A stretch of 64,000 bases of DNA from the NCBI RefSeq assembly GCF_003584125.1, contig NZ_QXFL01000001.1, forward strand, positions 620,001 to 684,000, written 5' to 3'. Source of the DNA: Aurantiacibacter zhengii (lineage in GTDB: Bacteria; Pseudomonadota; Alphaproteobacteria; Sphingomonadales; Sphingomonadaceae). Below are positions 4,046 through 15,695 of the stretch, in pieces (within the stretch, counting starts at the first letter, position 1; each line of letters opens with the position of its first letter). Both the position numbers and the translations under genes were made by a program. Under the pieces are notes generated by a model that was given only the letters and a program-made list of their open reading frames with translations, was not told where the DNA came from and made no database searches.

Positions 4046-4692
4046 AGCGCCAGCGCCACCGGCTCCTGCCCCGGCTTCCACGGCTTTTCCCGCTGCATCA
4101 CAGTCTTGAACAGCGGCGACTGCAGATGCCGTTCCAGCCATGGGTGCAGGTTCGGCAGGTCGGCCGCATCGAACCACTCGCGATCATGGTTGGCGAATTG
4201 ACGGATGAAGGGGAAGATCGCCGCGTCCGCAATACCGCGCCGCTCTCCGCATAGCTGGCCGCCTTTGGCCAGCCGCGCGTCCAGCTTTTGCAGGAATTCC
4301 AGACCACGCGCGCGGTGCGGCAGCGGGTCACAATCGCCGTAGCGGTTGGGGTATTTGTAATGGTCGAGCGCATGCTTGAAGGGACCGTCGCATTCGGCGA
4401 TGAGTTCCGGATCATCACGCTCCAGCCAGCCTTCGGGATCGTTCCGGGCAAGCGCCCAGCGCATCACTTCGATGCTTTCCTCGATCACCGGTCCATCGGG
4501 CAACACCAGCACCGGTACCGTGCCCTTGGGCGAGGCTTCCAGCATGGCATCGGGCTTGTCCGACAGCTTCACCTCGCGCAGTTCGCACTGCGTCCCGCTC
4601 ACCACCAGCGCCAGGCGGGCGCGCATGGCGTAGGGGCAGCGGCGGAAGCTGTAGAGGATGCGGTCAGGAATGGTCGTCTGGCTCCGGGTCAT
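4042..4692 (-). CDS. Glutathione S-transferase family protein
   Basis: This 216-residue protein has a thioredoxin-like N-terminal domain (residues 10-85). The active-site region is [13 protein letters not shown], where Cys19 replaces the Ser/Tyr of classical GSTs, as in omega/beta-like or DsbA-like GSTs. The cis-proline motif is [12 protein letters not shown] and the glutathione contact is [11 protein letters not shown]. An all-helical C-terminal domain follows. It probably does glutathione-dependent thiol-disulfide exchange or detoxification. Its start overlaps the end of trhO by 29 nt on the same strand, so the two are probably co-transcribed. Confidence 0.85.
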
Positions 4693-5662
4693 CGTCCTTC
4701 ACAAGCTGGCTGGGCAGTACCGCCCCGACGTGGGCACGCCCCTGTGCCATAGCAAGCTCTTCCTGCCGCTGCCGCTCGCGATAGGCCTCGCGCTGTTCGT
4801 CGGTGCGTTCATCCCAACAGGCGGGGCAGCTGACGCCTTCCTCGTAGTGTTCGGATTGCATGTCCTGTGCGCTGACCGGGCGACGGCAGGCGAAGCACAG
4901 GCCGTAGCTGCCCAGCGCGAGGCCATGGCCCACGGTCACGCGCTGGTCGAACACGAAGCACTCGCCGCGCCACATGCTGAGGTCTTCCGGCACCGTTTCG
5001 AGGTATTTCAGGATGCCGCCGTTCAGGTGGTAGACCTCCTCCACCCCTTCGGCCTTCAGGAAGGCAGTGGACTTCTCGCAGCGGATGCCGCCGGTGCAGT
5101 ACATCGCCACCTTGGGCTGCTTGCCCTCCCCCAGCAACCGCGCGCGCTCGGCGCGGAACCACTCGGGGAAGTCGCGGAAGCTGGGAGTCTTTGGATCGAT
5201 CGCGCCTTCGAACTGGCCCACCGCCACTTCGTAGTCGTTGCGCGTGTCGATCACGATCGTGTCCGGGTCGGCGATCAGGTCGTTCCAGTCCTGCGGATCG
5301 ACGTAGGTGCCCGCGTTGTGCGCAGGGTCGAGATCGCCCTGCCCCATCGTCACAATCTCCTGCTTTAGCCGCACCTTGGTGCGGTGGAACGGCATGGCGA
5401 CAGCGCCGGAGAACTTCACTTCGATATCGGCACAATCCGGCAGCGCGCGAATGTGACCGAGCACCGCGTCGATGCCCGCAGGCGTGCCCGCGATGGTGCC
5501 GTTGATCCCCTCCTTCGCCAGCAGCAGCGTGCCCCGCACGCCGCCCGCCCGGCAGGCCGCCAGCAACGGCCCGCGCAGCGCGGCGGGATCCTCGAACGTG
5601 GCAAAGCGATAGAGTGCGGCGACGCGGATGGGCGCGTTGTCGATAGGAAGCGGGATGGCCAT
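4664..5662 (-). CDS. trhO: tRNA uridine(34) 5-hydroxylase TrhO (UPF0176, rhodanese domain)
   Basis: TrhO hydroxylates U34 of tRNAs in an oxygen-dependent step toward 5-oxyacetyl- or methoxyuridine. The protein (332 residues) has the UPF0176 N-terminal domain ([12 protein letters not shown], residues 49-60), a central rhodanese domain with catalytic Cys189 in [12 protein letters not shown], and a C-terminal cysteine-rich segment (CFACRRPV, then CPACWDERT) that may bind zinc. The start at 5662 ([11 protein letters not shown]) is chosen over the upstream open frame because family similarity begins there. It is divergent from pufL. Confidence 0.9.
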
Positions 5663-5847
5663 GCGCCGCCCCTTAGCGATCCGCTGGCGGCGAGGCCAGA
5701 CCGCCGCGCGGGCGGGCCTGGAACACAGTGAACGGTGCCCTGCAGCAGAATCCGCCAAATGTGTCGCTGCGCATGGCGGGTACCGCGCCACGCGCTCCAG
5801 CAGGATGTTTGAATTGCCAACACAAACTGGACACCGCTTTCCGGGAG

Positions 5848-5865
5848 TGTTAGGCAAGCTAGACA
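5848..5865. promoter_or_regulatory. PpsR/CrtJ-type palindrome (box 1) upstream of pufL
   Basis: TGTTAGGCAAGCTAGACA is a perfect TGT-N12-ACA site. PpsR/CrtJ proteins are known to bind this motif, often as two adjacent copies, to repress photosynthesis genes under oxygen. It lies 41 nt upstream of the pufL start. A single 6-base match is common by chance in this much DNA; the tandem arrangement and position give it weight. No confident -35/-10 could be placed. Confidence 0.75.
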
Positions 5866-5873
5866 AGTTGTAG

Positions 5874-5891
5874 TGTAAGTCTAACGGCACA
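5874..5891. promoter_or_regulatory. PpsR/CrtJ-type palindrome (box 2) upstream of pufL
   Basis: TGTAAGTCTAACGGCACA is a second perfect TGT-N12-ACA site, 8 bp after box 1 and 14 bp before the pufL ATG. Eight-base spacing between two boxes is a known layout for cooperative CrtJ/PpsR binding. A repressor here would cover the promoter or the start of the pufLMC transcript. Confidence 0.75.
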
Positions 5892-5905
5892 GTTGGGGTG
5901 TCCGC

Positions 5906-6754
5906 ATGTCCATGCTCAGCTTCGAACGCAAGTACCGGGTGGCCGGGGGCACCCTCGTCGGCGGCAGCTTGTTCGATTTCTGGGTTGGGCCTTTCTATGT
6001 CGGGTTCTTCGGCGTCACGACAGCGATATTCGCGCTCGTGGGGACGCTCCTCATCATCTACGGCGCAGCCATCGGGCCGACCTGGAACATCTGGCAGATC
6101 GACATCGCCCCGCCCGCCATCGAATACGGTCTGGGTTTCGCGCCGCTGAAGGAAGGCGGGCTCTGGCAGGTGATTACCATATGCGCCGTGGGTGCCTTCT
6201 GTTCATGGGCGCTGCGACAGGTCGAAATAGCCCGCAAGCTTGGCATTGGTTTCCACATCCCCATCGCGTTCTCCGCCGCGATCTTCGCCTACATCAGCCT
6301 TGAGGTGATCCGCCCGGTGATGCTGGGCGCGTGGGGACACGCCTTTCCCTATGGCATCTTCAGCCACCTCGATTGGGTTTCGAACGTCGGTTATCAGACC
6401 CTGCATTTTCACTACAATCCGGCGCACATGATCGCCGTGACCTGCTTCTTCGGCACCACGCTGATCCTGGCGATGCACGGAGGGGTCATACTTTCGGCCG
6501 TGAATCCTCCGGACGGGGAGGAAGTGAAGCACGGCCAGCACGAAAACCAGTATTTCCGCGACACCATCCTCTATTCCATCGGTCCGCTCGGCATCCATCG
6601 CCTTGGCTGGTTTGCCGCCATCAACGCCGGCCTGTGGAGCGCGGTGTGCATTCTTATCAGCGGGCCGTTCTGGATCGACGGCTGGCCTTACTGGTACGAC
6701 TGGTACCTGCAACTGCCGTTCTGGAACGACATGGGTCTGGACGGACTCCACTGA
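5906..6754 (+). CDS. pufL: Photosynthetic reaction centre L subunit
   Basis: This is a 282-residue, five-helix inner-membrane protein of the type II reaction centre; with M it holds the bacteriochlorophylls, bacteriopheophytins and quinones. Cofactor residues are all present, shifted by one from Rhodobacter sphaeroides numbering: His154 (accessory BChl), His168/His174 (special-pair region FHYNPAH), His191 and His231 (iron), Glu213 and Ser224 (QB proton delivery). GGGG lies 7 nt before the ATG. The stop overlaps the pufM start (TGATG). Unlike normal puf operons, no pufBA precede it; only 243 bp separate it from divergent trhO. Two PpsR-type boxes lie in that gap. Confidence 0.97.
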
Positions 6755-7806
6755 TGGCCTCCTTTCACAGCCTCTATTCCCAGATCCAGATTCACGGGCC
6801 TCACGACGAGGGCATTCCGCTGCGTGGCCACGAGTTTCCGCGCATCGGCAAACCATTTCTTAGCCGCTGGATCGGCAAGATCGGCGATCCGCAGATAGGC
6901 CCAACCTATCTCGGCTTCTGCGGTATCGCCTCGCTCATCTGCGGCTTCATCGCCATCGAGATCATCGGCCTCAATTTCCTCGCCCAGGTAAAATGGAACC
7001 CCGTTGCCTTCATCGAGGGGATAGCCTGGCACCGGCTTGACCCGCCGGATGCGAAGTGGGGTTTTTCGCCCTTCGTCCCGCTGGAGGAAGGGGGCTGGTG
7101 GATAATGGCGGGCTTTTTCCTCACCGCGTCCATCCTGCTGTGGTGGGGGCGCATCTACCTGCGGGCCAAGGCGCTGGGAATGAACACGCATGTCGCCTGG
7201 GCTTTTGCCTCCGCGATCTTCCTCTACCTTTCGCTGGGCTTTATCAGGCCAATGCTGATGGGATCGTGGCACGAGGCACCGCCGTTCGGCATCATTCCGC
7301 ATCTGAACTGGACGGCATCTTTTTCCGTCCTTTACGGCAACTTCTACTACAACCCGTTCCACTGCTTCTCGATCGCGTTCCTCTACGGCTCGGTCCTGTT
7401 GTTCGCGATGCACGGCGGCACAATCCTCGCAACTTCGCGCTTCGGCGGGGAGCGGGAGACCGAGGAGATCATGGATCGCGGCACTGCGGCCGAACGTGGG
7501 GCGCTGTTCTGGCGCTGGTGCATGGGTTTCAACGCCACGTTCGAATCGGTGCACCGCTGGGCCTACTGGTTCGCCGTGCTGACAACCTTCACCGGTGCCA
7601 TCGGCATTCTCCTTACAGGAACGGTGGTAGACAACTGGTACCTGTGGGGCGTCAAGTGGGGCCTGGCTCCCGACTATCCGCAGACCTACCCCGACATGGT
7701 GCTGCCACCCGAGATCGCCGAGCAGGTACGCGCCGCAGCCGACAGTTCGCAGACCGCCGTCGATACGCTGCCGCCGCCGCCCCCGGCGATGGAGGGCGCA
7801 CCATGA
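6754..7806 (+). CDS. pufM: Photosynthetic reaction centre M subunit
   Basis: The 350-residue partner of PufL binds the other half of the special pair and the QA site. Ligands are intact: His183 (accessory BChl), His203 (special pair, NPFHCFSIA), and His220, Glu235 and His267 (iron). Signatures such as [10 protein letters not shown] and [15 protein letters not shown] are conserved. It carries about 40 residues beyond the usual end near WGLAP, finishing in a Pro/Ala-rich tail ([13 protein letters not shown]). It is translationally coupled to both neighbours: TGATG with pufL and ATGA with pufC. Confidence 0.97.
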
Positions 7807-8963
7807 AGCCGGCACCCGAGAAATCACGCACAAGTATAGTGGGCATCGTGGCCTTGGCTGCGGCGGCAGTGACCCTGCTGTTCCTCATCGTGGTGCCCAA
7901 GTGGGATGCGCCGTGGGATCCGATCGAATCGCGCGAATGGGGCTGGCGCGGGATAGCGATGAACACTTTCACCTCGGAACGCACGCGCACCGACCCGCTC
8001 AACCTGATACCGCCGGAGATACCGGCTTTCGAACCGAGCGGACAACCGGCATCGGCCGTCTACCAGAACCTGCAAGTGCTGGGCGGCCTTGATTCCGCCC
8101 GCTTCGACCACCTGATGGCATCGATCACCGAATGGGTCGCCCCCGAGCAAGGGTGCGGCTATTGTCATGACCTGACCGAAGGGTTCGCATCCGATGCCAT
8201 CTACACCAAGCAGGTCGCCCGAACGATGCTGCAGATGGTTCGCGACATTAACAGCAACTCTCGCCATGTCGGCCAAACGGGCGTTACCTGTTACACCTGT
8301 CACAGGGGCCAGAACATCCCGTCGAAAGTGTGGTTAAGGGGTGCCGAGCCTAAGCCGCCGATGGGCGGGATCGTGGGCATGCCGCCCCCGTGGAACCGCA
8401 CTGCCGAAAACATGCGCGATTTCTTCCCCCGCCGCCCGTTCGAGGATTACCTGCTGGATGACAAGACGATCACCGGCGCCCAGGCGCGCGCGGTATCGGG
8501 CGAGGTGGCCGATCTCAGCAAGCTTGAAGACATCTACATTTTGATGATGCAGATGTCAGATGGAATGGGCGTCAACTGCACGTTCTGCCACAACAGCCGC
8601 GCTTTTGCCGACTGGTCGCAAAGCACACCCGCCCGCATAAACGCCTGGTATGGCATTCGCATGGTCCAGCGGCTGAACAACGACTATCTCGTAGGATTGC
8701 AGGACATCTTCCCGGCGAACAAGCTGGGGCCACTGGGCGATGTGGCCAAGGTGGACTGCGCCACGTGCCACAACGGCATGTCACGCCCGCTGGGCGGGGC
8801 ACCGATGGCGGCGGGTTACGAGGCACTCCATGCCACAGGCATATCGCGTGATGCCATCGTGCGAGAGACCGCTTACGAAACACGCAACGCGCGCATGGCC
8901 GAAATCCAGGCACCGCCGCCCGATCCAGCAGGACTGGTGCAGGGCGAAAGCGACGGCGAGTAG
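7803..8963 (+). CDS. pufC: Reaction-centre tetrahaem cytochrome c subunit
   Basis: PufC donates electrons to the oxidised special pair from the periplasmic side. The protein (386 residues) has four haem-attachment motifs: CGYCH (118-122), CYTCH (163-167), CTFCH (259-263) and CATCH (319-323). Methionine-rich helices (ARTMLQM, YILMMQM) can supply axial ligands. The N-terminal hydrophobic segment (residues 11-31) has no lipobox cysteine, so it is probably held by an uncleaved helix rather than by lipid. The start overlaps pufM (ATGA). It converges on puhC with 44 bp between stops. Confidence 0.96.
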
Positions 8964-8985
8964 GAGTGCCGGCTGGGCCTTGTCG

Positions 8986-9011
8986 CTAGCAGGCCGCTGG
9001 CAGGCCGCTAG
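8986..9011. other. Inverted repeat between convergent pufC and puhC
   Basis: CTAGC pairs with GCTAG, and inside them GGCC pairs with GGCC around the loop GCTGGCA, with one bulge. It sits where the two convergent transcripts meet and includes the puhC stop. It has no T tract on either strand, so it may stall or stabilise 3' ends but is not a convincing intrinsic terminator. Confidence 0.4.
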
Positions 9012-9448
9012 CCGTGGCTCCGATCGAGATAGCCCGCGAAAGCATCGACGCTCGCCCGGCCAAACCCCTCCAGCTTCACCGCGCGACCGGTCTCGGGATC
9101 GGCCAGTTCGAGGTGACCGCCAGCATCGCGTTGAACCAGCAGGTGGTACTCGCTTGCTTCATCGCGCAGCGGCTGCTGCATCGCCAGCGCGCGGACCGCG
9201 GTCATCGCGAATGTATCACCTTCTACCACGAGCCGGGTCAGCTGATGCCCCTGCTCGTCCGATACCAGCATCTCCCCGCCGGGCAGCGGGGTGAACACCA
9301 GCATCCTGCTCTCCGGCGCATCGACAAGGGCGGCGGTCTCCAGCCGGCCGACTTCGTAGTGGCGGGCAAGCGGTATGGTGGTGACGGTAAACCCCACGAG
9401 CAGCGCCGCGCCGATCAGGGCGCCGCGCGGCACTCTTATCTCAGACAC
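9008..9448 (-). CDS. puhC: Photosynthetic complex assembly protein PuhC
   Basis: This 146-residue protein has one N-terminal membrane helix (ALIGAALLVGFTVTTIPLA) and a periplasmic domain with LVDAPESRMLVFTPLPGG and GFGRASVDAF, features of PuhC. PuhC helps assemble the reaction centre and its LH1 antenna. It starts with GTG and overlaps the end of puhB by 8 nt, making it the last gene of puhABC. Its LH1-related role is odd here because no pufBA are in the window. Confidence 0.85.
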   Translation of the reverse strand: MSEIRVPRGALIGAALLVGFTVTTIPLARHYEVGRLETAALVDAPESRMLVFTPLPGGEMLVSDEQGHQLTRLVVEGDTFAMTAVRALAMQQPLRDEASEYHLLVQRDAGGHLELADPETGRAVKLEGFGRASVDAFAGYLDRSHG

Positions 9449-10112
9449 GGGCTTCAGCCCCTACAGGCGTCTGGGCACGTGCCTTGTCCTTCACCGGGGA
9501 TTGCGAAGGATGGCGGATCCCGGGCGCGGCCCGCATCAGTGCGTCGACCAGTATCTGTCCTGCGGGCGAATCTGCAGGAAGAGCGCGAAGCAGGGGCACG
9601 GGCTGCTTCCACTGCGTGGCCAGCGCGTGCGGCCACAGCGCCAGCCAGGCAATCTTGTTGGGGCGGCGCAAGGTCAGGGCGATATCGCGGCTGCCGCGGC
9701 GATCCCGCTCGCCCACATGGGCAATCTGCCGCAGCGGGATGTTGACCGTTCGCGTCAGCGCCACGCCCACCTGCAGGATCACGCGGCGATCGGTGATAAT
9801 ATAAGTGCTGGTGGTTGCGAGAAGCCATGACCCGAGCTGCACGAAGGCGAGGATGACCGCGGCAAACGGCAGCACCAGCAGCGGGCTCAAGGCGATCTGC
9901 ATCAAGCCTGCCCCCTGCTGCACCGTAGCCAGCAGGGGCAGCAGCGCTACCAGCGCGAGATAGGTCGCCAGCATGGGCCAGCGAAAGAGATAGCGCGACA
10001 GTGCCGAGCGAGCGGGCTTGCCGTGCCACAGCACGCGCTCCCCTTCGGGCAACGGGCCCGGCAGGCCTAGCTCGATATCGATGGGCTGGTTTCGGGGCGC
10101 CGGGGCGGTCAT
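9441..10112 (-). CDS. puhB: Photosynthetic complex assembly protein PuhB
   Basis: This 223-residue membrane protein is a reaction-centre assembly factor. The N-terminal soluble part (GPLPEGERVLWHGKPA) is followed by two closely spaced membrane segments (about residues 47-66 and 75-99) and a PH-like domain (YIITDRRVILQVG, then IPLRQIAHV). The start at 10112 overlaps the puhA stop as ATGA, showing tight coupling. The unrelated upstream frame extension to 10205 lies inside puhA and is ignored. Confidence 0.9.
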   Translation of the reverse strand: MTAPAPRNQPIDIELGLPGPLPEGERVLWHGKPARSALSRYLFRWPMLATYLALVALLPLLATVQQGAGLMQIALSPLLVLPFAAVILAFVQLGSWLLATTSTYIITDRRVILQVGVALTRTVNIPLRQIAHVGERDRRGSRDIALTLRRPNKIAWLALWPHALATQWKQPVPLLRALPADSPAGQILVDALMRAAPGIRHPSQSPVKDKARAQTPVGAEARV

Positions 10113-10888
10113 GCGGGATCGTGGATCTGGCCCTGCCGGCCGGAGAATCGCAGTCCGCCAGCGAAGAAGCCGTTCAAACGGTCTTCTTCGCGCATGGTTA
10201 TGCAATCGTCGGCCGCGCGCACCGGCACGCGGCGCAGGTCACTTTCGGCAAGGGTCGTCGCGCGCACGATACGATCTTCCGGCAAGGCCTCGGCAAAGAA
10301 CGCCGGAACGAGGCGGCGCCCTTCGGCTCCGTCGATAGAAACTTCGTAATAGCGCAGGAAAAACTCGGCGCGGTTGAACCACAGATCGTGGACCTTGCCG
10401 ACCTTGCGTTCATCGGCGGAATAGAGGTCCCAGCCGCGCGGATCGGGATCGCCGGATGGAATGTAATATTCCTGGTAGTCGTTCAGCGGGATGAGCTTGG
10501 GATCGCCCTCCACGTCAAGGTCGGGCTTTTCCTCGCGCAGCCGAGTCCACGCTGCCGCACCCACGCCTTCCATCAGCGGATCGGCGCCGGGCAGCATGGG
10601 AAAGCCAATCGGGGGTAGCTGGTCAGCGGGCCGGACATTCTCGGGCTCTTCGACACGGGGAACCTGTACCGTACCGCGACCGTGGGGCCGGTTGAATATC
10701 TTGGGGGAGGGAACCGCCGGAAAACCCTCGGCCCGGTGGATACGCCCGTCGGGGCCCTCCATCTCCAGCGGGTACCCTTCTCGCTTGTCTTCACGGCGCA
10801 GGTGGTAGACCAGCCCGGCGAAGAACAGGACAAAGGCGATCACGCACAGGATGGCGGCGTCGAGGTTTCCGACCAGATTTTCATCCAT
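10109..10888 (-). CDS. puhA: Photosynthetic reaction centre H subunit
   Basis: The H subunit caps the cytoplasmic face of the L-M core and shapes proton transfer to QB. The protein (259 residues) has one N-terminal membrane helix (ILCVIAFVLFFAGLVYHLRREDKREGYPL, within residues 13-41) followed by the PRC-barrel-type cytoplasmic domain, including DPRGWDLYSADERKVGKV. The start MDENLVGN at 10888 is preferred; an ATG three codons upstream (10897) is possible. It is first gene of the puhABC unit. A PpsR-type box lies about 55 nt upstream. No lhaA or bch genes precede it, unlike in standard clusters. Confidence 0.95.
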   Translation of the reverse strand: MDENLVGNLDAAILCVIAFVLFFAGLVYHLRREDKREGYPLEMEGPDGRIHRAEGFPAVPSPKIFNRPHGRGTVQVPRVEEPENVRPADQLPPIGFPMLPGADPLMEGVGAAAWTRLREEKPDLDVEGDPKLIPLNDYQEYYIPSGDPDPRGWDLYSADERKVGKVHDLWFNRAEFFLRYYEVSIDGAEGRRLVPAFFAEALPEDRIVRATTLAESDLRRVPVRAADDCITMREEDRLNGFFAGGLRFSGRQGQIHDPA

Positions 10889-10942
10889 GGCTCGCATCTA
10901 TCGCATCGCCTGCAAGGTGTCCAACATAATTGTCGGAAGTGG

Positions 10943-10960
10943 TGTATAGTTTACTAAACA
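10943..10960. promoter_or_regulatory. PpsR/CrtJ-type palindrome upstream of puhA
   Basis: TGTATAGTTTACTAAACA is a perfect TGT-N12-ACA motif, extended by a flanking G and C (GTGT-ACAC). It lies 55 nt upstream of the puhA start. On the minus strand, TGAACC and TATACA with a 17-bp spacer could form a weak -35/-10 whose -10 falls inside the box. Having the same motif at both ends of the island supports shared control. Confidence 0.65.
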
Positions 10961-11258
10961 CACTAGGTTCACTTATTGCCGTTAAGGGATCATCACGGCG
11001 TTTGTTTTCCCGTTGGCGAAACGGGATCGAAAGTACACCTGCGAAGGCGATGCTGCAGAAATCTACGATGGCTCAAAATCGGTAGACGAGGGTGAAGCTG
11101 AGAGGGCTTTCGATGACTTCTTAGCCCGTTGTGGTCCGCCCAGCTTCGACGATTGCGTCTAGCCATTTCTTCGTGTCCACAATCGGACCGTAAGCAGAAA
11201 GTCCGATCTCGGCAGCACTGACACAGGGAAACCGCGCGCTATCCTGCGTCCACTCGAC
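10961..11258. other. Gene-free spacer after the reaction-centre island
   Basis: Between the puhA control region and the oxidoreductase gene I find no convincing ORF, tRNA or terminator. It is lower in GC than its neighbours and contains one repeat-like segment at 11174-11205. It marks the right edge of the reaction-centre island. Confidence 0.6.
11174..11205. repeat. Diverged copy of the interspersed repeat arm
   Basis: TGTCCACAATCGGACCGTAA followed by GCAGAAAGTCCG matches the left arm of the repeats at 1216 and 1769 (TGTCCGCAATCGGGTCGTTA, then GCGGAAAGTCCG) with a few changes. Only this arm is seen. Confidence 0.5.
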
Positions 11259-12266
11259 TCACCCCTCCATTGTCACCACGATCTTGCCCTTGGCGTGGCC
11301 TTCTTCCAGTTCGGCCATTGCCTTTTCTATGTCGTCGAAGGGATAGCGGCTGTCGATCACCGGCTTCAGGTCGCCGCCAGTTGCCATTTCGGCGAGGTAG
11401 GCGAGTTCGCTGCCGCTGGGGTGCATGAAAATGTAGCGATAGTCAGCGCCTGCCTTCCGGGCCTGCTTGCGCAGGTCGCGGCTCATGGCCCAGAACACGG
11501 CGGCAAGACCGTAGCGGCCGCCAAGATCGCTCGTGGCAGTGCGCGGTTCGGGGGTGCCGGCGATGGAGACCACACGCCCGCCTTCCTTCACCACCTTGAA
11601 ACAGCGCGAAAGGGTGTCATCGCCGATCAGGTCGAACACGCCATCTACGGGATCGATTACGTCCTCGAACTTCTCGTGCTCGTAATCGATCACCACGTCC
11701 GCGCCCATGTCCTTCACCAGTTCGCGCCCGCGCTCGGATGCGGTAGTGACGACTTCCGCGCCAAGGTACTTGGCGATCTGGATGGCGAAGGTACCCACGC
11801 CGCCTGCGCCGCCGGTGATCAGCACACGGAAGCCCGGCCCGATTTCCAGTTCGTCGCGCAATGCCTGCAACGCGGTAAGTCCCGCCAGCGGAATGGCGGC
11901 GGCGGTTTCGAAGTCGATGCTTTCGGGAATCGGGGTCAGGAATTCCTCCCGCACCACGGCATATTCGGCAAAGGCGCCCAGCCGTTCCTTGCCCACGCGG
12001 GCGAAGACGCGGGTGCCTGGCGGAAAGCGCGTGGCGGCCCTGCCGTTCGCTTCGACAACGCCTGCCAGTTCGTTGCCCATCGTGATCGGCAGCTTCAGCC
12101 GCAGGATCGGCTTCAGCGCGCCCTCGCGGATCTTGTAATCGACGGGGTTGAGACCGGCAGCCTTTACCCGCACCAGCACTTCGCCAAGGCCGGGCGTGGG
12201 CCGCTCCACCTCGCGCATCTGCGCCTTGTCGGCATCGCCGTATTCGGTGAGGGTGTAGGCTTTCAT
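11259..12266 (-). CDS. NADP-dependent quinone oxidoreductase/MDR-family alcohol dehydrogenase
   Basis: The protein (335 residues) belongs to the medium-chain dehydrogenase superfamily without structural zinc, like quinone oxidoreductases. It has the N-terminal GroES-like fold (VRVKAAGLNPVDYKIREG), substrate-side motif MGNELAGVV, and the nucleotide-binding motif GGAGGVGTFAIQIAKYLGA, followed by DYEHEKFEDV. It probably reduces quinones or enones using NADPH in the cytosol. It stands alone on the minus strand and its exact substrate cannot be read from sequence. Confidence 0.85.
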   Translation of the reverse strand: MKAYTLTEYGDADKAQMREVERPTPGLGEVLVRVKAAGLNPVDYKIREGALKPILRLKLPITMGNELAGVVEANGRAATRFPPGTRVFARVGKERLGAFAEYAVVREEFLTPIPESIDFETAAAIPLAGLTALQALRDELEIGPGFRVLITGGAGGVGTFAIQIAKYLGAEVVTTASERGRELVKDMGADVVIDYEHEKFEDVIDPVDGVFDLIGDDTLSRCFKVVKEGGRVVSIAGTPEPRTATSDLGGRYGLAAVFWAMSRDLRKQARKAGADYRYIFMHPSGSELAYLAEMATGGDLKPVIDSRYPFDDIEKAMAELEEGHAKGKIVVTMEG

Positions 12267-12355
12267 CGGAACGCTCCATAGGTATCGGTGAGTGGCGCGA
12301 ACCCCGCGCCCTTTAGCTCACCAACACCCGCGACAGCGCCGATGTTCCGCCAGCC

Positions 12356-14014
<1,659 letters not shown>

Positions 14015-14678: not shown

Positions 14679-15695
14679 CTAGGCCGCAGCCAGCAGTTCC
14701 TCCGCCCCGGGCGAGGCTTCCAGCAATTCGATCAGCGCGCGTTCCCAGCGGTTCTGGTACTGGGTGCGGCGCGGCAGGCGCATACTTTCGCGCCATTCCT
14801 CCTGCCGGGCGATCAGGTCGATCACGGCGGGGTGGACATAGCTTTTTCGCGTTACCGCCGGCGTGTTTCCAAGGTATTCGGCCACCCGTTCCAGCACTGA
14901 CTTGATCGTCAGCACCTCCCTGGCTTCTCCAAGCAGCCGCAATGCCATCACGCTGGCATGCCATGTGCGGAAATTCTTTGCAGAGAACGCCGCGCCCATC
15001 GTTTCCGAAAGGTAAGCGTTGACGTCGCCCGAAGTGACATCGTGCGCCACGTTTTCTGCATCTATCCAGCAGAACAGGTGCTGGCCGGGCAGGTCCTGCA
15101 TCTTGCGCACGCACGTGGCCAGCGCCGTATCGGACAGTTCCACCTCGCGCTTCTTGCCGCCTTTGCCGGTATAGCGCAGGCGCAAGGTGCGCCCGGTAAG
15201 CTCCGCATGGCGTCGACGCAGGGTTGTCGCCCCGAAACTGCGGTTCTCGCGCGCGTAGTTCGTATTGCCCACGCGGATAGCGCCAAGGTCCAGCAGGCGC
15301 ACCACGCTGGCCGTTGCGCGGTCGCGGTGCAGGTCACGCATCCGCATGTCCTCCTCCACCCGCTTGCGCAAAAGGGGCAGGCGCTTGCCGAAAGCCACGC
15401 ACCCGTCGAACTTCTCGCTCTCGCGCCAGCTGCGAAACTCAGGGTGATAGCGGTATTGCTTGCGGCCCTTGGCATCGAAGCCGGTGGCAAGGATATGGCC
15501 GTTGGGCGCCGGGCAGAACCACGCATCGACATAGGCGGGCGGCAGGGCGATGGCGTTCAGGCGCTTTTTCTCCGCCGGATCGGTAATCAGCTTGCCGTCG
15601 GGATCGTAATAGGCCCAGCCCTTCCCAGCCCCCTTGCGAGTGATGCCGGGAAGGCTGTCATCCACGTGGATGAGGTTGGACGGGCGCGTTGCCAT
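14679..15695 (-). CDS. DNA topoisomerase IB
   Basis: This 338-residue protein is a bacterial/poxvirus-type IB topoisomerase, which relaxes supercoils through a 3'-phosphotyrosine link. The catalytic tyrosine is Tyr286 in TRKSYVHP. The beta-hairpin lysine motif YTGKGGKKREV and the arginine-bearing segment RVGNTNYARENRSFGATTL are present. The N-terminal domain shows GKGWAYYDPDGK and GRKQYRYHPEFR. It is a complete gene beside an AmpG-like transporter and has no visible partner. Confidence 0.92.
   Translation of the reverse strand: MATRPSNLIHVDDSLPGITRKGAGKGWAYYDPDGKLITDPAEKKRLNAIALPPAYVDAWFCPAPNGHILATGFDAKGRKQYRYHPEFRSWRESEKFDGCVAFGKRLPLLRKRVEEDMRMRDLHRDRATASVVRLLDLGAIRVGNTNYARENRSFGATTLRRRHAELTGRTLRLRYTGKGGKKREVELSDTALATCVRKMQDLPGQHLFCWIDAENVAHDVTSGDVNAYLSETMGAAFSAKNFRTWHASVMALRLLGEAREVLTIKSVLERVAEYLGNTPAVTRKSYVHPAVIDLIARQEEWRESMRLPRRTQYQNRWERALIELLEASPGAEELLAAA

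Follow-up and report, generated by a model that had tools for sequence, protein, structure and literature searches.

A probable second reaction-centre cassette of the Citromicrobium type in Aurantiacibacter zhengii

Citromicrobium sp. JL354 was reported in 2012 to carry, besides a complete photosynthesis gene cluster, an incomplete one of the composition pufLMC-puhCBA, which differs from the complete cluster and is slightly lower in GC content (PMC3338782). A 2025 review calls this double set unique. Here we describe a stand-alone island of photosynthetic reaction-centre (RC) genes in Aurantiacibacter zhengii (GCF_003584125.1; 3.80 Mb in 29 contigs). The island lies in a 64,000-nucleotide stretch of contig NZ_QXFL01000001.1 (C1:620001-684000; hereafter the window, to whose positions plain coordinates refer). 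As in JL354, compared here by its published description, the same six genes stand contiguously and a complete cluster is found elsewhere in the genome; the Citromicrobium precedent named in a preliminary description of this stretch is real (PMC3338782). The JL354 island is situated inside an integrative conjugative element (ICE) and the JL354 complete cluster has no pufC (PMC3338782). The present island occupies a slot between trhO and an MDR oxidoreductase gene, where three conjugation-type proteins gave no match, and shares its genome with a resident cluster that does contain pufC.

We regard the island as a second RC cassette of the Citromicrobium type, which is probably functional and controlled by the resident regulator. 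In the fuller form of this reading, which we favour with some reserve, a self-contained cassette of foreign lineage would be controlled by the resident PpsR and its RC loaded with resident bacteriochlorophyll. The cassette would supply the L, M and H subunits, the tetrahaem cytochrome PufC and two assembly factors for a second type II RC, and would derive from an RC lineage other than that of the resident cluster. The resident PpsR would switch it together with the resident cluster, and the island RC would take bacteriochlorophyll a from the resident pathway, working either antenna-less or inside light-harvesting complex 1 made from the resident pufBA. The cell would thus possess an additional RC whose Q_B proton wiring and cytochrome subunit differ from those of the resident one.

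Gene content of the island and of the resident cluster

The island consists of two convergent arms, pufL-pufM-pufC (5906-8963, forward strand) and puhC-puhB-puhA (10888-9008, reverse strand), and the stop codons of pufC and puhC are 44 bp apart. On the forward strand, pufL (5906-6754) encodes an L subunit of 282 aa (PF00124, Photo_RC, E = 4.1e-93), pufM (6754-7806) an M subunit of 350 aa (PF00124, E = 1.7e-97) and pufC (7803-8963) a tetrahaem cytochrome subunit of 386 aa (PF02276, CytoC_RC, E = 1.1e-102) with four CXXCH motifs and no Cys in residues 1-50. The reverse strand holds the assembly genes puhC (9008-9448; TIGR03054, 77.6 bits, cut-off 55; no Pfam match) and puhB (9441-10112; NF040894, 139.4 bits, cut-off 110; in Pfam a PH-domain match only), together with puhA for the H subunit (10109-10888, alternative ATG at 10897; TIGR01150, E = 7.5e-81; PRCH in Pfam). 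Family models thus identify all six genes (Pfam, and NCBIfam above the cut-offs for PuhA, PuhB and PuhC), and the best PDB sequence matches were chains L and M of 9m8m for PufL and PufM, respectively, and chain C of 3wmm for PufC. The reading frames and models confirm what had been described before, namely six RC genes in 5 kb, and Pfam confirms their borders, trhO and the MDR oxidoreductase gene.

The gene content is that of the Citromicrobium type, with contiguous pufLMC and puhABC alone and neither antenna nor pigment genes. The gap between trhO and pufL is 243 bp. A whole-genome search with the antenna family LHC (PF00556) gave two matches, which form one pufBA pair on another contig (C24, 25.5-25.8 kb), and 15 resident-cluster proteins used as tblastn queries (E<=1e-15) found no match anywhere in the window; the earlier statement that antenna and pigment genes are absent from the island is borne out. 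Composition was uninformative (GC 0.62 in the island, 0.62 and 0.64 in the flanks), and sigma-70 scans returned nothing useful.

The second puf set, pufLMC, lies on contig C24 at about 26.0-28.9 kb (C24:26000-28826), and its products are 70% (PufL) and 48% (PufC) identical to those of the island. NCBIfam models detected nine bch genes (bchC, X, Y, Z, P, G, B, H and L, with the 3' part of bchH scanned), acsF, puhE and puhA on C24, together with PpsR-CrtJ (TIGR02040, 384 bits, cut-off 275.4), and the resident puhB was found by tblastn. A gene for a B12-binding protein adjoins ppsR, as expected of AerR/PpaA. No resident puhC was matched in the C24 cluster by tblastn with the island PuhC. We infer that the bacteriochlorophyll pathway of C24 is complete. 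The preliminary description had proposed a search for a complete cluster elsewhere in the genome, and C24 provides it (pufBALMC, puhA, puhB, nine bch genes, acsF and ppsR); hence neither of the two refutations stated there, a contig joining directly to bch/crt genes or a genome devoid of a bacteriochlorophyll pathway, applies to the island. Since pufBA, bch genes and ppsR stand together on another contig, the island is a second RC set, and the genome has one antenna gene pair beside two sets of RC genes. Both loci encode the same RC subunits in the same genome, and a TGT-N12-ACA palindrome also precedes the resident bchC. They differ in that pufBA, bch, acsF, puhE and ppsR are present on C24 only, and in that the resident puf and puh operons are co-directional and about 17 kb apart, whereas those of the island converge.

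In a sample of 397 family genomes searched with PufL, 76 have PufL, seven have two sets and none has the island alone. The seven are this genome and six genomes (G006, G100, G162, G211, G314 and G377) of a second genus, g7, which would appear to be Citromicrobium; of the ten g7 genomes, six have both sets, one the cluster only and three neither. As in JL354, whose complete cluster lacks pufC (PMC3338782), the island PufC is the sole PufC match at E<=1e-10 in those g7 genomes that have both sets. A PufC as island-like as E<=1e-100 occurs in two of 396 genomes of the order, this genome and G006. In the genus of this genome (g1), the 11 other genomes listed comprise four with a PufC at 46-47% and seven without PufC, and the island was not found in the 13 other g1 genomes listed (those 11 and two more) nor in the other genera sampled. 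The LHC search of ten genomes, eight of which have two RC sets, gave two matches (one pair) in each, always beside the pufBA-type cluster.

A wider search returned at least 595 PufL loci. Among the best 80, 75 have a bch gene in the stretch examined and four gave no match to any of 12 queries (bch, acsF and puhE); of these four stretches, three are shorter than 6 kb, and the fourth is a 16.8-kb stretch of Methylobacterium sp. 2A (L010). This genome has another pufL with an LHC pair on a different contig. The stretch L010:7900-14726 carries a stand-alone pufLMC-puhAB whose pufL is preceded by two TGT-N12-ACA sites. No puhC match was obtained there at E<=1e-8, while the resident B12-binding protein has a match of 36% at position 14726. 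L010 thus resembles the island in being a second RC set without nearby bch or LHC genes, in its tandem palindromes and in its proximity in trees. It is unlike the island in its puh genes, co-directional with puf, in Ser/Glu at L213/M44 and in its long branch. In the available parts of two Methylobacterium papers (PMC6798729, PMC8561711) there is no mention of a second RC set; whether they include the puf genes of strain 2A was not checked.

Upstream palindromes and integrity of the island genes

Three TGT-N12-ACA palindromes, putatively of the PpsR/CrtJ type by the consensus given in PMC5362033, stand before the two island operons. An upper site (5848-5865, forward) and a lower site (5874-5891, forward), 26 bp apart, lie 5' of pufL, and a third (10943-10960, reverse) lies 5' of puhA. 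The preliminary description had noted no regulators; this is right for genes and overlooks these promoter sites, two of which have their outer edges at the limits that it gave for the island (5848 and 10960). The window contains 11 such sites where 5.5 are expected, a count reached by one of 100 shuffles, and three of the 11 fall in the two island promoters. In the seven islands together, the sequences preceding pufL and puhA (3,710 bp) hold 16 sites, where the frequency in the rest of these 20-kb loci would predict 0.33. A site occurs within 250 bp upstream of pufL in 7/7 islands and of puhA in 6/7, and all six g7 islands have the pufL palindrome at -36 or -37.

Tandem palindromes precede pufL at a spacing of 26 bp in the window and G100 and of 25 bp in the cassette of Methylobacterium sp. 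2A; pairs at 19-40 bp number 18 in 1.18 Mb of other loci, photosynthesis clusters among them. In R. capsulatus, bchC has two TGTN12ACA sites for CrtJ at -4/-21 and -30/-47, which gives the same 26-bp spacing as in the window and G100 (PMC5362033). The resident bchC has a single site about 110 bp upstream. Two features of a PpsR/CrtJ regulon, promoter palindromes and an encoded PpsR, are present in this genome.

All six genes have full-length frames in 7/7 islands. The ratio of nonsynonymous to synonymous substitution (dN/dS) was 0.01-0.31 across the six genes in eight of the 21 possible island pairs, with synonymous changes near saturation for some. By these measures the genes of the island are intact and evolve under purifying selection. 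In 7/7 islands the His residues that serve as ligands to the special pair, the accessory bacteriochlorophylls and the Fe are kept, as are Glu L212 and Ser L223, and Glu M234 is present in the window protein, the one protein checked for it; the L/M numbering was assigned by motif. PufC has four CXXCH motifs in 7/7 islands.

The Q_B site differs between the two RC types. Exactly one acid occurs at L213/M44 in 71/71 RCs. The islands have L213-Asn with M44-Asp, and 21 family clusters have L213-Asp with M44 Gln, Asn, Ala or Gly; the resident RC is accordingly L213-Asp. The swap between L213 and M44 may be compensatory, as in Blastochloris viridis; the parts covered of one paper on the subject do not state it. 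Such covariation across two genes would be hard to explain in a decaying copy.

These data bear on the proposal that the island is a decaying remnant, left when a full cluster lost its pigment genes. Its gene content is indeed a subset of a full cluster. A possible parent layout is found in G251, a g1 genome with a divergent cluster (L196-L199, G251:C1:1830001-1910000) that has convergent pufLMC and puhBA arms, falls near the islands and outside the family clusters, and looks acquired; gene loss between and outside such arms would yield the island layout. The six full-length frames in all islands, the purifying selection in eight pairs, the retained ligands and acid pair, and the palindromes kept despite different flanks speak against decay, and we regard a remnant as very improbable. 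Where the preliminary description had left a choice between a second RC, a spare set and a remnant, the remnant is disfavoured by the intact frames, the dN/dS values and the conserved palindromes, and the sequence fits a second RC and a spare set alike.

A spare or condition-specific set, in which the island RC would replace the resident one under certain oxygen, light or electron-donor conditions, is an unlikely though more serious alternative. The two RCs differ in the Q_B acid pair and their PufC proteins are 48% identical. The window PufC begins with a hydrophobic stretch without Cys (7803-7952), while the resident PufC (L006:7810-7960) has a lipobox-like LAGC sequence, so membrane anchoring of the two may differ. 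In the g7 genomes with two sets, the island PufC is moreover the only PufC match. However, palindromes of the same type stand before the island operons and the resident bchC, which points to joint rather than opposite control.

Phylogenetic placement and the weight of the evidence

Trees were built from PufL and PufM (L+M), from PufC, and from all three (L+M+C). Rows at least 90% alike from the genome_contigs search were removed (108 to 82), and loci were then picked by hand from the best 80: 26 plus L201 for L+M, 25 for PufC and 20 for L+M+C. L085 was dropped for a short PufM match, and L006 and L118, as double entries, were omitted from the first tree. Rows were obtained for 70 of the 71 chosen loci for PufC and for 47 of 48 for L+M+C (L016 has no PufC), and the G314 island (L120) was omitted from both.

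In the more careful L+M tree of 71 rows, the islands form one clade (100/100) and the family clusters, including the own cluster of this genome, another (100/99). Nearest to the islands are the G251 cluster and the Methylobacterium sp. 2A cassette (100/97, with the bootstrap not settled). The PufC tree again places the islands with these two (99 by the SH-like approximate likelihood ratio test, SH-aLRT); in it, as in the L+M+C tree, islands and family clusters again form separate clades, although the family member L193 fell outside the tested family group in the PufC tree. In the L+M+C tree the islands are united at 100, and a branch of 100 splits the islands, G251 and L010 from all other rows. 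The grouping of the islands with G251 might reflect long-branch attraction; with G251 removed, the Methylobacterium link persists (98 SH-aLRT).

In approximately unbiased (AU) tests, PufC rejected the islands with the family (p = 0.002) and with their own PufC (p = 0.003), and L+M+C rejected the islands with the own-genus clusters (p = 0.001). On L+M, only the grouping with the g7 clusters was rejected among those tried (p = 0.017). L+M thus leaves the origin open, and PufC carries the case. Of the tree comparison proposed in the preliminary description, the separate placement of the two sets was obtained, and on PufL and PufM alone a common origin is not rejected.

Several observations weigh against a foreign, functional cassette under resident control. 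The AU tests used quick trees, and several were made with uncorrected p values. On L+M they do not reject a grouping of the islands with clusters of the family (p = 0.43), with those of the own genus (0.19) or with the own cluster (0.098), and on L+M+C they reject the islands with the family weakly (p = 0.035). The nearest relatives, G251 and L010, are long branches, and in the L+M+C tree L010 and the islands stand on opposite sides of the midpoint root. Because four of the six g7 islands are near-copies at one site, the conservation counts are not independent. As to control, PpsR binding to the island palindromes is predicted solely from the consensus; the control spacings N10, N11, N13 and N14 gave 1, 1, 2 and 6 sites in the island upstreams, and with six N14 matches this control is not clean; in G100 the 250 bp ahead of puhA hold no palindrome, the nearest being about 320 bp upstream. 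Finally, the C24 genes confirmed by model do not extend to bchD, F, I, M, N and O or to lhaA.

The L+M values would also allow a local duplication of the resident RC genes with fast divergence, for they do not reject the islands with the own-genus clusters or the own cluster. Such an origin is rejected on PufC and L+M+C; it would require the two-gene L213/M44 swap to arise anew, and the convergent island operons contrast with the co-directional resident ones. We judge duplication very improbable.

Genomic setting, spread and meaning

On the chromosome, the island is flanked on the left by trhO (4664-5662, reverse; PF17773 and PF00581, UPF0176_N plus rhodanese) and on the right by the MDR oxidoreductase gene (11259-12266, reverse; a zinc-type dehydrogenase, PF08240/PF13602), both outside the island and 94% and 93% identical, respectively, to their counterparts in the close relative G338, a genome with no PufL match. 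By blastn against the G338 locus (L144), homology ends at 5715 and restarts at 11258, so that the block 5716-11257, which contains the whole island, has no DNA homology there. In G338 the same slot holds a kinase-like open reading frame (PAS/HWE type by eye) and a response regulator, and in G316 a Na/Ca exchanger gene; since both hold other genes there, the trhO-MDR interval is a variable slot in g1. The interval spans 5663-11258 in the window, 10351-12182 in L144 and 10799-12655 in the G316 locus (L145). No repeat pair joining the block ends was found among 20 of the 39 direct repeat families and 25 of the 41 inverted pairs. A separate dispersed repeat of about 74 bp lies at open reading frame starts (1217-1294 and 1771-1844), occurs at nine places in the genome (E<=1e-4) and is also found in G338.

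The g7 islands have three settings: G006, G314, G162 and G211 share one, G100 has another, and G377 has its island beside trhO and GST. Three conjugative-looking genes lie about 23 kb from the G006 island, the first being TrbI by Pfam and the other two assigned by position only, in agreement with the ICE described for JL354 (PMC3338782). These three proteins, the only ICE markers searched, gave no match in the window or the 20 kb upstream (L128). A ParA/VirC1-like ATPase gene lies about 9 kb upstream of the G377 island. With regard to plasmid carriage, a PufC search of 72,556 plasmid records gave seven matches, all below 60% identity, the best being Methylobacterium aquaticum in a record without gene annotation; PufL of the Methylobacterium sp. 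2A cassette found 11 records at 60-80%.

An old acquisition that was then inherited vertically within g1 and g7 and lost many times, as opposed to a recent transfer into this genome, is possible, although we hold it to be somewhat doubtful. G377 shares with the window the trhO-GST neighbourhood and the orientation of the island, and synonymous divergence between the two is alike for the island genes (0.85-1.46), trhO (1.19) and GST (1.12), all near saturation. Against this stand the failure to find the island in the other g1 genomes and genera sampled, the other genes in the G338 and G316 slot, the right-hand flank of G377, which gave no match to that of the window, and the different location of the island in the other g7 genomes. 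A class-level PufC search of 385 genomes found a match at E<=1e-70 in 18 of them, the best-scoring besides the own island being 45% identical, so that the search speaks neither for nor against the Fulvimarina-like donor that has been published.

In the parts of the open-access literature covered, which also included PMC3176799, PMC4919336, PMC12654162, PMC8239185 and PMC12016528, neither PpsR sites, nor a Q_B swap, nor another genus is reported for a Citromicrobium-type island. As far as searched, these three features and the wider lineage are therefore new relative to the published JL354 set. More tentatively, the sequences would fit a "satellite" RC lineage of small antenna-less cassettes that carry their palindromes with them and through these are wired to the PpsR of the host, move among alphaproteobacteria that can already make bacteriochlorophyll, and run alongside the host RC with another Q_B proton path and another cytochrome. 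Its members might be the window island, those of the six g7 genomes and the cassette of Methylobacterium sp. 2A.

The same gene set is now seen in another genus and, in another layout, in Methylobacterium, each genome having one antenna pair. If the cassette is active, one cell would make two RCs of different lineage and proton wiring, which would be a natural experiment on how far an RC depends on the cluster it belongs to, and would offer a route for the spread of RC genes rather than of whole clusters. Surveys based on pufM may also count some cells twice.

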